A DNA stretch of 64,000 nucleotides from Thiohalobacter thiocyanaticus (GCF_002356355.1 NZ_AP018052.1:558001-622000), one strand, 5' to 3'; shown: positions 1 through 4,996, counted from the first letter of the stretch. The notes: generated from the sequence alone by a model not told the origin. Numbers and translations are program-made.

Positions 1-876
<876 letters not shown>

Positions 877-1176: not shown

Positions 1177-1192
1177 TGGCATGGAACTTGAG
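1177..1192 (+). promoter_or_regulatory. Possible sigma-54 promoter for the thiocyanate-dehydrogenase-like operon
   Basis: TGGCATGGAACTTGAG resembles the sigma-54 consensus TGGCACG-N4-TTGCA with correct spacing, but the conserved C of the -12 GC element is A. It lies about 117 bases upstream of the first start codon and just downstream of a sigma-54 activator gene. The -12 mismatch makes this tentative. Confidence 0.3.
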
Positions 1193-1308
1193 TGTAGGGA
1201 TTGGCGGCAGGTGCGCCGGGTCGTTCCAGTTCTCGCTTTGCAGACGGACAGCACGCAGCTTCCTGCCAACTCAAGTGAGTACACATCGAAACTGAAGGAG
1301 GAATCAAC

Positions 1309-1932
1309 ATGAAAACATCCAGACATCCGGCCCGGGGCGGTCGGCTGACTGTCGGGTGTTCGGCTGCGGCCGGTGCACTTATGCTCGCACTCGCTGCTCC
1401 GGGCACTGCAGTGGCCGATAGCATCGACGGAAACTTCCCCACGGCCGACGAAGTCGGCGGCGAAGTGTTCCCCAGAGGCGTGCAGGCCGGAGACCGGTTC
1501 CCCACCGACTGGGACATCTACGATGCCAACGGCAACAAGACCGATGTCAGCAAGCTGATCAAGGGCAAGCGCACTGTGCTGGCATTCTTCATCTCCGCGG
1601 TTCCGGTTTCCGTGGATGAGTTGACGAAGCTGCAGAACGCCTTTACCGGCAAGGGTGACACCCAGCTGCTGTTCGTGAATTCCGACCAGGTGGGCGGCAA
1701 GCTGCTGGGCGTGGACCCGATCCAGGAGACGGCCCGCACCGTGCGTGTGATCAAGCGTGAGGAGAACATCAAGCATCCGATGTTCGTCGCGCCCAACGAC
1801 GCCCTGAGCCCGACCGGCCTGTCCAACAAGCTCGGTTTCCGCGGTCTGCCGACGGTGTTCGTCATCGACAAGAACGGCAAGGTGGAAAAAGTCTATGTCG
1901 GACCGCAGGACTGGTCTGATACCAAGGTCTGA
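1309..1932 (+). CDS. Periplasmic thioredoxin-fold protein lacking the CXXC motif
   Basis: The 207-residue protein has an N-terminal Sec signal peptide ending near AVADS and a thioredoxin/TlpA-like domain. Where the redox CXXC should lie, after the beta-strand TVLAFFIS, the sequence reads AVPVSVDE. The cis-proline loop (GLPTVFVID) is kept. The only cysteine is inside the signal peptide, so the mature protein has none and cannot do thiol chemistry. A strong Shine-Dalgarno (AAGGAGGA) precedes the ATG. It is the first gene of a four-gene operon and ends 30 bases before the copper-enzyme-like gene. A role as assembly factor or structural partner of that enzyme is inference. Confidence 0.85.
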   Translation: MKTSRHPARGGRLTVGCSAAAGALMLALAAPGTAVADSIDGNFPTADEVGGEVFPRGVQAGDRFPTDWDIYDANGNKTDVSKLIKGKRTVLAFFISAVPVSVDELTKLQNAFTGKGDTQLLFVNSDQVGGKLLGVDPIQETARTVRVIKREENIKHPMFVAPNDALSPTGLSNKLGFRGLPTVFVIDKNGKVEKVYVGPQDWSDTKV

Positions 1933-1962
1933 GACAGTCAGCGAATCGTAGGAGAATTTTCA

Positions 1963-3429
1963 ATGAGTATTTCCCGACGCAATTTCATGAAGGGCGCCAT
2001 GGCCGCCGGCGTGGCCGGCACCGCCGGCAGCTTCGCCATGAACCCGGCCATGGCCGCGGTGCATGACGCCACCGGCGAGCGCCAGCACGAACTGTTCAAG
2101 CAGTTCAAGGGCAACGTCATCCTGCTGCCCGGCAAGTACAGCGGTTCGGTCTCCGCGCTGGACCTGTCCGTGCCCGAGACCCTGGCCTGGTACAACTTCG
2201 GCCTGGCCGGCATCGACATGCCGATTCCGCATCACATCGCCGCCATGCCCTCGGCCGACCCATACAAGACCTTCGATTTCTACCAGACCATGCAGCCGCC
2301 CGCGGCCCCCTACGTCAACGAGAACTCCCCGGAGTGGCGTGACCGCGGCGCATTCAAGATGTACAAGATGCGCTACGACGGCAGTGGCAAGCAGAACAAG
2401 ATCTCCGTGGTCAACGACGTCAGCGAGACCACCGGCATGGCGCTGGGCGTGCACGTCTCCATCGGTGTGGGTCCGAACGCCAACAAGTATGTCGCCTTCG
2501 CCGACGGCCAGAAGGACATGGTGCTGATCACCGACATCAGCGACAACCCGAAGATCGTCAAGGCCTTCCGTTGCGACTACGACCCGGTCGCCCGTCAGGT
2601 CAACATCTCTCATGTGTTCCCGGATTCCTCGACCGGCAAGTTCGACTACCTTGACCGCAAGGGTATGAAGACCAGTCACGAGGCGATGCTGGGCGAGGAG
2701 CTGATGCCGGCCGATCCGACCGCCGTGTTCGTCGACGCCTTCACCTGGCATCCCGAGCTGCCGCTGGGTGCGATCCTGATCCGCCGCCTGGGCTGCTGCG
2801 CCATCGTCGACACCAACACCTGGGAAGTCAAAGCCATGCTGTCCACCGGCAAGGGCGCCCCGGACAACTTCCCGTTGGTCAAGCAGCAGGGCTACACCTG
2901 GACCTACTCAGTGCCGTCCGTGCTGACCCCGCTGCACGAGGCCGGCTTCAACACCAGCGGCGAGTACTTCCTGGCCTGCAACAACGTGCTGCAGAACAAC
3001 ATCGCGGTCTACCGCTCCGAGGATCCGGACCCGATGAAGTGGAAGAAGGAGGCCTTCGTCGAGGGCTTCGGGCGCAAGTACCTGCCCCTGCACATGGGCA
3101 ACGTGCCGGATTCGCGCTGGGTATTCTTCACCATCTGGGCGCGCAAGCCGCACAACGGCTACATCTGCAAGGTCGATCCCAAGACCTGGAAGGTGGTCGC
3201 CAAGTGGGATACCGGTCCGGATCCGCACACCTGCGACTGCACCATCGACGGTCAGTTCATCACCACGGTGTACAGCGGTCACCAGTCCGGCCAGTCCGGC
3301 ATGGTGGTGATCCACGCCGACAGCGACGAGATCGTGGCACGCCTGCCGAACCCCGGCGGCATGCACGACCACGTGGTGGTGCCGGAGAGCTGGGAGGGCC
3401 TGAAGTCCTCGCGCAGTACTTCGGTCTGA
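1963..3429 (+). CDS. Tat-exported beta-propeller oxidoreductase, thiocyanate dehydrogenase-like
   Basis: The 488-residue protein starts with a twin-arginine signal (SRRNFMKG) and an Ala-rich hydrophobic stretch, cleaved near residue 32. The rest is a beta-propeller rich in histidine (for example H90-H91, H164, H217, H263, H325, H377, H397, H422, H440, H468 and H470), with K102 close to the first pair. This suits the thiocyanate dehydrogenase/N2O-reductase-like copper family, in which a His-rich trinuclear copper site oxidises thiocyanate to cyanate and sulfur in haloalkaliphilic sulfur oxidisers. The assignment rests on recalled family features, not an alignment, and the protein seems somewhat shorter than known enzymes. 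A Shine-Dalgarno (AGGAG) precedes the start. Neighbours encode periplasmic proteins, including a His-tailed one that could supply copper. Confidence 0.62.
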   Translation: MSISRRNFMKGAMAAGVAGTAGSFAMNPAMAAVHDATGERQHELFKQFKGNVILLPGKYSGSVSALDLSVPETLAWYNFGLAGIDMPIPHHIAAMPSADPYKTFDFYQTMQPPAAPYVNENSPEWRDRGAFKMYKMRYDGSGKQNKISVVNDVSETTGMALGVHVSIGVGPNANKYVAFADGQKDMVLITDISDNPKIVKAFRCDYDPVARQVNISHVFPDSSTGKFDYLDRKGMKTSHEAMLGEELMPADPTAVFVDAFTWHPELPLGAILIRRLGCCAIVDTNTWEVKAMLSTGKGAPDNFPLVKQQGYTWTYSVPSVLTPLHEAGFNTSGEYFLACNNVLQNNIAVYRSEDPDPMKWKKEAFVEGFGRKYLPLHMGNVPDSRWVFFTIWARKPHNGYICKVDPKTWKVVAKWDTGPDPHTCDCTIDGQFITTVYSGHQSGQSGMVVIHADSDEIVARLPNPGGMHDHVVVPESWEGLKSSRSTSV

Positions 3430-3440
3430 GGCCGTCAGTC

Positions 3441-3470
3441 GTGACCCGGCGTCTGCCGGGTCACTTCTTT
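3441..3470 (+). terminator. Terminator-like hairpin inside the operon
   Basis: A perfect 10-bp stem (GTGACCCGGC / GCCGGGTCAC) with a GTCT loop is followed by TTCTTT. It lies between the beta-propeller gene and the next gene, 20 bases before the next ATG. It may partly terminate transcription or stabilise the upstream message, giving more of the first two proteins. Confidence 0.6.
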
Positions 3471-3489
3471 ATGCAATCTGGAGTCGATT

Positions 3490-3972
3490 ATGAAAATTAT
3501 CAGTCAGGTAGTGAAAGTGCTGTTCATGATCGCCGGCTTGGTGGCCGTTCAGCCTGCGCTGCAGGCGCACACCGACGAATATCTTGACCAGCATGGTGCC
3601 GTGCACGGCGGCATGATGCGCATGTCAGGGCCCTATCACCTGGAACTGGTGGTGGAGTCAGGCAAGGCCGTGGTCTGGGTCATGGATCACGCCAATCAGC
3701 CGCGGCCGACCGCGGGCGCGCAGGGTCAGCTGATCCTGTTCCAGGACGGTGAACGCATCGTCCTCAATCTCGCGCCGGAAGGCGACAGCCGCATGCTGGC
3801 CGAGGATTCACGCATCAGCGCGACCGCTGCCCCGCGCGCGGTGCTGACCCTGAGCATGCGCGGCCAGGCGCCGCTGCAGGTGCGCTTCGCCGAATTGACG
3901 AAGGCGAAGGCCAGGACCGGGACCGGGACCGATCATGACCACGATCATGGTCACGCAGATCATGCGCATTGA
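3490..3972 (+). CDS. Periplasmic protein with a His-rich metal-binding tail
   Basis: The 160-residue protein has a signal peptide (cleaved near LQAHTDE), a small domain with HLELVV and WVMDHANQ strands, and a C-terminal tail DHDHDHGHADHAH. Histidine and methionine also cluster near the mature N-terminus (HGAVHGGMMRM). Such tails bind copper, nickel or zinc. Placed directly after a putative multicopper enzyme, a periplasmic copper-delivery role is the best guess, but no named family is recognised. Shine-Dalgarno GGAG lies before the ATG. The stop overlaps the start of the next gene. Confidence 0.8.
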   Translation: MKIISQVVKVLFMIAGLVAVQPALQAHTDEYLDQHGAVHGGMMRMSGPYHLELVVESGKAVVWVMDHANQPRPTAGAQGQLILFQDGERIVLNLAPEGDSRMLAEDSRISATAAPRAVLTLSMRGQAPLQVRFAELTKAKARTGTGTDHDHDHGHADHAH

Positions 3973-4591
3973 TCGCCGCAGTTTGACAACCGGGCTTGCG
4001 CTCATGCTGCTGCTGCCCCTGGGCGGCGTGTTCGCCGAGCCGGATTCGGGCGAGCAGGCGGTGCAGCGGCTGCTGGAGACCAACGCCTGTCCCGGCTGCA
4101 ATCTCGATGGCACCGATCTGTCCGGACAGAACCTGCTGGGGGCGGATCTGCACGGGGCCAGCCTGCGCCAGGTCAAGCTGGCCGACACCGCGGTCACGGG
4201 ATCGGATCTGCGCGAAGCCGATCTGACCGGCGCTGATCTGCGCGGCGCCATTCTGGGCGGCTGCAACCTGGCCGACGCGGTGCTCACCGAGGCGCGCCTG
4301 GAGGACGCCTTTCTCACCCGCGCCCGACTGCAGCGGGCCAATCTGGACGGGGCCGGCCTCAGGTATGCGCGCCTCGACAACGCCAATCTGGACGGCGCCA
4401 GCCTGGTCGGCGCCGATCTGCGCGAGGCGGATCTCTACAGTGCCCGGTTTTTCTTCGCCGACCTCAGCGATGCGCAGCTGCAGGGGGCGGACATGAACTC
4501 GGCGGACCTGGGCGAGGCGATGCTCGGAGGGGCGGTGACGGATTCGCTGACCGTGTGCCCCGACCGCAGCCAGGGCCCGTGTAACTGGTAG
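3962..4591 (+). CDS. Exported pentapeptide-repeat protein
   Basis: The start at 3962 gives 209 residues with a clean signal peptide (MRIDRRSLTTGLALMLLL ... VFAEP); an in-frame ATG at 3935 lies deep inside the upstream gene and would spoil the signal. The mature protein has a NACPGCNLDG element followed by about 25 A(D/N)LXX pentapeptides, which form a right-handed quadrilateral beta-helix. The CPGC motif before the first repeat is common in this type. It overlaps the stop of the His-tailed gene, so it is translationally coupled. The function is unknown; periplasmic scaffold of the operon product is a guess. Confidence 0.85.
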   Translation: MRIDRRSLTTGLALMLLLPLGGVFAEPDSGEQAVQRLLETNACPGCNLDGTDLSGQNLLGADLHGASLRQVKLADTAVTGSDLREADLTGADLRGAILGGCNLADAVLTEARLEDAFLTRARLQRANLDGAGLRYARLDNANLDGASLVGADLREADLYSARFFFADLSDAQLQGADMNSADLGEAMLGGAVTDSLTVCPDRSQGPCNW

Positions 4592-4638: not shown

Positions 4639-4666
4639 ACGGGACCTTCGCGTCCCGTTTTTTTTT
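4639..4666 (+). terminator. Rho-independent terminator of the thiocyanate-dehydrogenase-like operon
   Basis: The stem ACGGGAC / GTCCCGT with a 6-base loop is followed by a run of nine T. It lies 48 bases after the pentapeptide-repeat gene. Confidence 0.9.
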
Positions 4667-4732: not shown

Positions 4733-4996
4733 CGTCATCCCGGTACCGGCCTGCGCCGGCACAGGCTCCGGCCGGGATCCAGATACCTCGGCGGCCTCTG
4801 GATTGCGGCCTGCGCCGCAATGACGGATGCTGGCCTGGTTTACCTGTGGGGGCTGCAGCGACTCTTGAGCAACCCCGCAAATCTGTGAAGAACCTTTTTT
4901 TTGGGGAACGCTGATTAGTTCCCCTGCCGTCATTCCCGCGAAGGCGGGAATCCAGTGGTTTCAGCGACATGGATGCCCGCCTTCGCGGGCATGACG
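4733..4996. repeat. Two dRS3-like palindromic repeats
   Basis: The members lie at about 4733-4826 and 4928-4996. The first has diverged arms (GTCATCCCGGTACCGGCCTG ...). The gap 4667-5049 holds nothing else that I can recognise. Confidence 0.8.

Follow-up and report, generated by a model that had tools for sequence, protein, structure and literature searches.

The four consecutive plus-strand genes at 1309-4591 of the window, the 64,000-nucleotide stretch of DNA analysed here, are in all likelihood the thiocyanate-oxidation locus of Thiohalobacter sp. FOKN1, an assignment that concerns both the identity of the enzyme, thiocyanate dehydrogenase (TcDH), and the pathway. An enzyme of this kind is expected to bind three copper ions and to oxidize SCN- to OCN- and sulfur. 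A promoter-type site precedes the genes and a terminator follows them (Table 1). Since the gene order is kept in about 27 other loci, chance can be excluded as its origin. The original prediction of a four-gene operon at 1177-4591 held, with all four open reading frames at the places it implied, and its start is exactly the first base of a -24/-12-like site, TGGCATGGAACTTGAG. The enzyme, the Cys-less thioredoxin-fold gene upstream of it, the sigma-54 regulator and the "Cus" genes were already published in 2019. We add the conserved pair of downstream genes, the link of this pair to metal RND pumps, a link to SoxXA, and a narrower reading of copper assembly.

Table 1. Features of the locus, in window coordinates
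Feature	Position	Strand	Basis
NtrC-type sigma-54 response regulator, 3' part	1..876	+	locus L032
Putative sigma-54 (-24/-12) promoter TGGCATGGAACTTGAG	1177..1192	+	position conserved in relatives
Exported Cys-less thioredoxin-fold protein, 207 aa, ResA/TlpA-like fold	1309..1932	+	Pfam, model
Thiocyanate dehydrogenase (TcDH), 488 aa	1963..3429	+	PDB matches, active-site alignment, published coordinates
Periplasmic beta-sandwich protein, 160 aa, probable metal-binding RND pump partner	3490..3972	+	invariant residues, model, neighbourhoods
Exported pentapeptide-repeat protein, invariant CxxC and C-terminal CPxxxxGPC	3962..4591	+	Pfam
Intrinsic terminator, stem ACGGGAC..GTCCCGT and T run	4639..4666	+	stem-loop

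The longest version of the pentapeptide reading frame begins at 3935, and the start given in Table 1 overlaps the stop of the preceding gene. Further upstream, beyond the window edge, the same locus (L032) encodes a histidine kinase, an RND pump and two HlyD proteins.

The 488-residue protein matches every TcDH structure in the PDB (E 1e-71 to 1e-81, residues 36-487). Its Tat export had been predicted, and the Tat signal indeed scores above the Pfam cut-off (TAT_signal, 23.6 bits against 22.7), with TIGR01409 also above its own. The active site was checked in the numbering of 5F75 against the 13-residue list of Tsallagov et al. (PMC6504805): K103, H135, H136, Q156, H206, E288, D314, H381, H437, H482, H528, D529 and R544. 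All 13 are kept in the alignment with the Thioalkalivibrio paradoxus enzyme, as K58, H90, H91, Q111, H164, E240, D258, H325, H377, H422, H468, D469 and R484. The TcDH gene of FOKN1 has been placed at 559,963-561,429 of AP018052 (PMC8958297), which equals window 1963-3429 exactly, and the genome holds a single copy. The prediction that the enzyme is a TcDH is thus borne out by both the copper-site residues and the published coordinates, and we infer its copper content and substrate accordingly to be those of TcDH. The type I enzymes of T. paradoxus (5F75) and Pelomicrobium (8Q9X) have the propeller, the Tat export and 13/13 active-site residues in common with it. The FOKN1 protein falls into a type II group, in which most loci share 70% identity or more; identity is 56-60% with clade B (genomes G245, G255 and G754), 33-39% with type I and only 35-39% with characterised TcDHs.

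The full set of 13 residues is found in 28 of the 30 aligned homologues. The two exceptions, on a Methylocella tundrae plasmid (L031, 8458-10365) and in genome G545 (L046, 8847-10529), have Gln for the copper ligand His482, as does PDB chain 8yu5. The distant Methylocella homologue, which adjoins ABC transporter genes and has different neighbours, was the only one in a search of plasmids. Six Cys of TcDH (278, 279, 339, 402, 424 and 426) are conserved in clade A and mostly absent from clade B and type I, two of them directly after copper ligand H422 (HTCDC). They might form disulfides or a sulfur relay.

The neighbours proved to be conserved with TcDH, as a comparison of open frames across 34 loci reveals. 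Every type II locus whose contig allows a view has the thioredoxin-fold gene upstream of TcDH. Of the assessable clade A loci (duplicates left out; two loci break off too soon), 26/27 have the 160-aa gene and 24/27 the pentapeptide gene. Both are missing from the Nitrospira NOB1 and clade B loci. The cassette is conserved across Gamma-, Beta- and Alphaproteobacteria; at a greater distance there are genes for a heavy-metal RND pump and two HlyD proteins, joined in many loci by a GAF-domain histidine kinase and a sigma-54 response regulator. The type I locus of T. thiocyanoxidans, which carries copCD, fccAB, tatA and ABC genes (PMC5744179), differs in having no thioredoxin-fold, RND/HlyD, 160-aa or pentapeptide genes. 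Excerpts of the accounts of the FOKN1 and T. thiocyanaticus HRh1 loci (PMC6934394, PMC6504805, PMC8958297) give the identical gene (with the same coordinates for FOKN1) and the same upstream thioredoxin-fold, sigma-54 regulator, kinase, RND and HlyD genes; the promoter, the downstream gene pair and the linkage to SoxXA are not described in them.

Several individual loci are peculiar. In a Nitrospira defluvii NOB1 MAG (L025, 9220-11467), a nitrite oxidiser that alone among 29 genomes of its genus has TcDH, the enzyme is 71% identical and accompanied by a thioredoxin-fold partner and a true CusA-type pump; cyanase is present and there is no SoxA above cut-off. Provided that the contig is not mis-binned, this organism might turn thiocyanate into cyanate and ammonium. 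The TcDH gene of Paracoccus sp. S-4012 (L028, 10001-11453) matches piecewise in different frames, without a detected pentapeptide gene, and is either a decaying copy or a sequencing error. In Guyparkeria SCN-R1, TcDH is followed by a Cu/Zn superoxide dismutase gene and then by a 58-residue piece of the TcDH C terminus (L007, 12437-12607); the paper on this strain gives a fragment of 52 residues and places it upstream. Such a SodC gene is found near TcDH in L013, L014, L015, L027, L029 and L030 as well as in L007, and DUF302 genes occur near TcDH in some loci.

Expression of the cluster is very probably turned on at the -24/-12 promoter by the adjacent sigma-54 regulator and histidine kinase. 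The site lies 132 bases before the first start codon; taken alone it is no better than shuffles within the window (p about 0.1). Relatives have a site at the corresponding position, in several cases with a full match to the consensus, and good sites 105-190 nt upstream of the first gene occur for the most part where the kinase/regulator pair is present. The search found no such site in Paracoccus, Amaricoccus, Rhodoplanes, Pseudaminobacter, Nitrospira, G255 or G754, which for the most part have no such pair near TcDH (Rhodoplanes has a kinase match further off). In place of the pair, the Paracoccus and Amaricoccus loci encode an ArsR regulator and a YeeE-type transporter nearby. REP-like palindromes (GATTCCCGCCTKCGCGGGAATGACG) occur 19 times in the window, at 914-991, 4928-4996 and 15 more places, with zero expected by chance, and pairs of them flank the cassette on both sides.

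Two readings of the upstream genes, published in the FOKN1/HRh1 accounts, appear questionable from the sequences. The kinase was described as a copper transporter, but it has HisKA, HATPase and GAF domains and lies beside a response regulator. The pump was named CusA. It does belong to the CusA/CzcA heavy-metal RND family (TIGR00914, 780 bits against a cut-off of 701), but the positions of the CusA residues Met573, Met623 and Met672 are A, F and E in clade A pumps, including its own. Because these three Cu(I) methionines are absent, the methionine test does not support the name Cus for this pump. Clade B and Nitrospira pumps have M, M and M at these positions, and their loci are also those that lack the 160-aa and pentapeptide genes.

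With its C-terminal DHDHDHGHADHAH, the 160-aa protein had been taken for a putative His-tailed metal carrier. The tail is real, but it is lineage-specific (Thiohalobacter, the G004 relative and a few others) and does not extend to the whole family. What the family does conserve is A26-H27, H50, E52 and D66, all invariant, with H39 and H67 nearly so. The His right after the predicted cleavage site is invariant in 22/22 members, and signal peptidase I, cutting at AxA-like sites, would expose His27 as the mature N terminus, which together with H50, E52 and D66 makes a set of candidate ligands. The model is an Ig-like sandwich whose closest folds are the copper-binding proteins FetP, P19, FtrA and CrdA (Z 10.9-9.4; next unrelated row 8.6); CopC reaches only Z 6.4, with no Pfam match. 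A shared fold of a model shows no function, and none of the 22 members gave a convincing match in Pfam or NCBIfam. Homology to P19/FetP (PF10634), suggested by the HxE motif, was not supported (no Pfam match; hhalign probability 1.4%), and the designed Pizza propellers among the PDB profile matches were rejected as repeated 14-residue chance matches.

Homologues with the same motifs lie near an RND pump in gammaproteobacteria without a TcDH profile match, directly adjoining it in G134 and two ORFs away in G292. CrdA of Helicobacter pylori (CrdAB-CzcBA), like FetP/P19 a periplasmic copper binder, also works with an RND pump and is encoded in its operon. For these reasons we prefer a role in metal efflux or buffering over a TcDH-specific one, and on balance the 160-aa protein would be a partner of the RND pump in metal efflux. 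The likeness has limits, since P19 has no detectable sequence homology to the family and CrdA has zero His and uses Met (PMC9182242), as opposed to the invariant His, Glu and Asp here. Together with the RND/HlyD pump, the protein would buffer or remove metal, probably copper, around the abundantly made TcDH.

The two other neighbours were correctly predicted as to their families. The pentapeptide-repeat protein gives strong Pfam matches in several stretches (PF00805, 119 bits, E 4.5e-35), with tandem A(D/N)LXX repeats and four invariant Cys. Beyond these Cys nothing points to metal, which leaves its predicted part in copper assembly without backing, and a literature search for work that relevantly links pentapeptide repeats with copper and thiocyanate found none. 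The 207-aa protein falls into the Redoxin/AhpC-TSA group (Redoxin, 40.4 bits), and its model is confidently ResA/TlpA-like, matching ResA with Z 16 and 2.1 A over 131 residues. It differs from ResA and TlpA in the loss of the CxxC and of all other Cys: there is none past the signal peptide here, and none in the domain of 26/26 members. The family (n = 26) has no conserved His either, and no Met reaches 23/26. It is thus neither a thiol carrier nor an obvious metal carrier.

What does this protein do? Tsallagov et al. (2019) proposed that it takes zero-valent sulfur from TcDH and hands it to the next enzymes. Its fold is in line with this, as is its constant position immediately before TcDH in type II loci, but a domain without Cys cannot form a persulfide, the proposal depends on non-covalent glutathione binding, and SoxXA beside TcDH in other loci provides a known alternative route; we consider it unlikely. 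The original prediction made the three small proteins candidates for copper-site assembly; as dedicated factors they would deliver copper to the trinuclear centre of TcDH and mature it. Their tight co-occurrence and order with TcDH stood up and favour such a role, as do the invariant N-terminal His, H50, E52 and D66, which recall the N-terminal His Cu(II) site of CopC, the copC gene flanking TcDH in Thioalkalivibrio (PMC5744179), and the inactivity of the isolated FOKN1 enzyme, which did not oxidize thiocyanate (PMC6934394). The role of the three as a set did not hold up as well: the thioredoxin-fold protein has no conserved possible ligands, the His tail is lineage-specific, members of the 160-aa family also lie by RND pumps in genomes that gave no TcDH match, and the TcDHs of clade B and Nitrospira manage without the 160-aa and pentapeptide genes. 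We therefore regard dedicated copper delivery by all three as doubtful. Since both readings miss the residues expected of the thioredoxin-fold protein, the most economical role for it is that of a non-catalytic binding partner of the TcDH propeller, which we propose tentatively.

The same inactivity, together with the low identity to characterised TcDHs, could also suggest that the type II propeller is a copper enzyme for a non-thiocyanate substrate, e.g., another reduced sulfur species. This is highly improbable, since every active-site residue is kept. Moreover, in the published work the FOKN1 enzyme makes up 2.455% of the proteome and is abundant in thiocyanate-grown cells (PMC6934394), and a protein of ~54 kDa is strongly overproduced by T. 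thiocyanaticus on thiocyanate (PMC6504805). Many host genomes derive from thiocyanate reactors, to judge by their record titles, and cyanase is enriched in the hosts (13/23, against 37/274 class genomes; Fisher p 6e-6, with lineages mixed and kinship ignored). A more elaborate possibility is that type II loci form a unit for maturation and sulfur hand-over, in which the Cys-less scaffold, the N-terminal-His copper protein, the four-Cys pentapeptide protein, C278, C279, C424 and C426 of the enzyme and the TcDH-linked SoxXA would load copper and pass sulfur directly to SoxYZ, the 160-aa protein replacing CopC, to which it is unrelated in sequence. This joint scheme is quite improbable; if true, it would explain the inactivity of isolated TcDH.

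As thiocyanate dehydrogenase the enzyme would release sulfur, and the neighbourhoods suggest where it goes. SoxX and SoxA genes, which often come with a SAXB-like gene, stand after the cassette in Thiobacillus; in G255 and G754 they are close to TcDH, and in Paracoccus thiocyanatus SoxA is. These TcDH-linked genes are often a second genomic copy, most such genomes carrying a further SoxA elsewhere; in FOKN1 the sox genes are far from TcDH. The second SoxXA pair beside TcDH in many relatives suggests that the sulfur atom probably passes from TcDH to the Sox carrier system.

Thiocyanate oxidation is relevant to waste water from mines and coke ovens, and these results bear on the copper supply of TcDH and the fate of its sulfur. 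They bring no new enzyme, but a short list of conserved neighbour genes, whose roles we infer, and a testable reason for the inactivity of the isolated FOKN1 TcDH.
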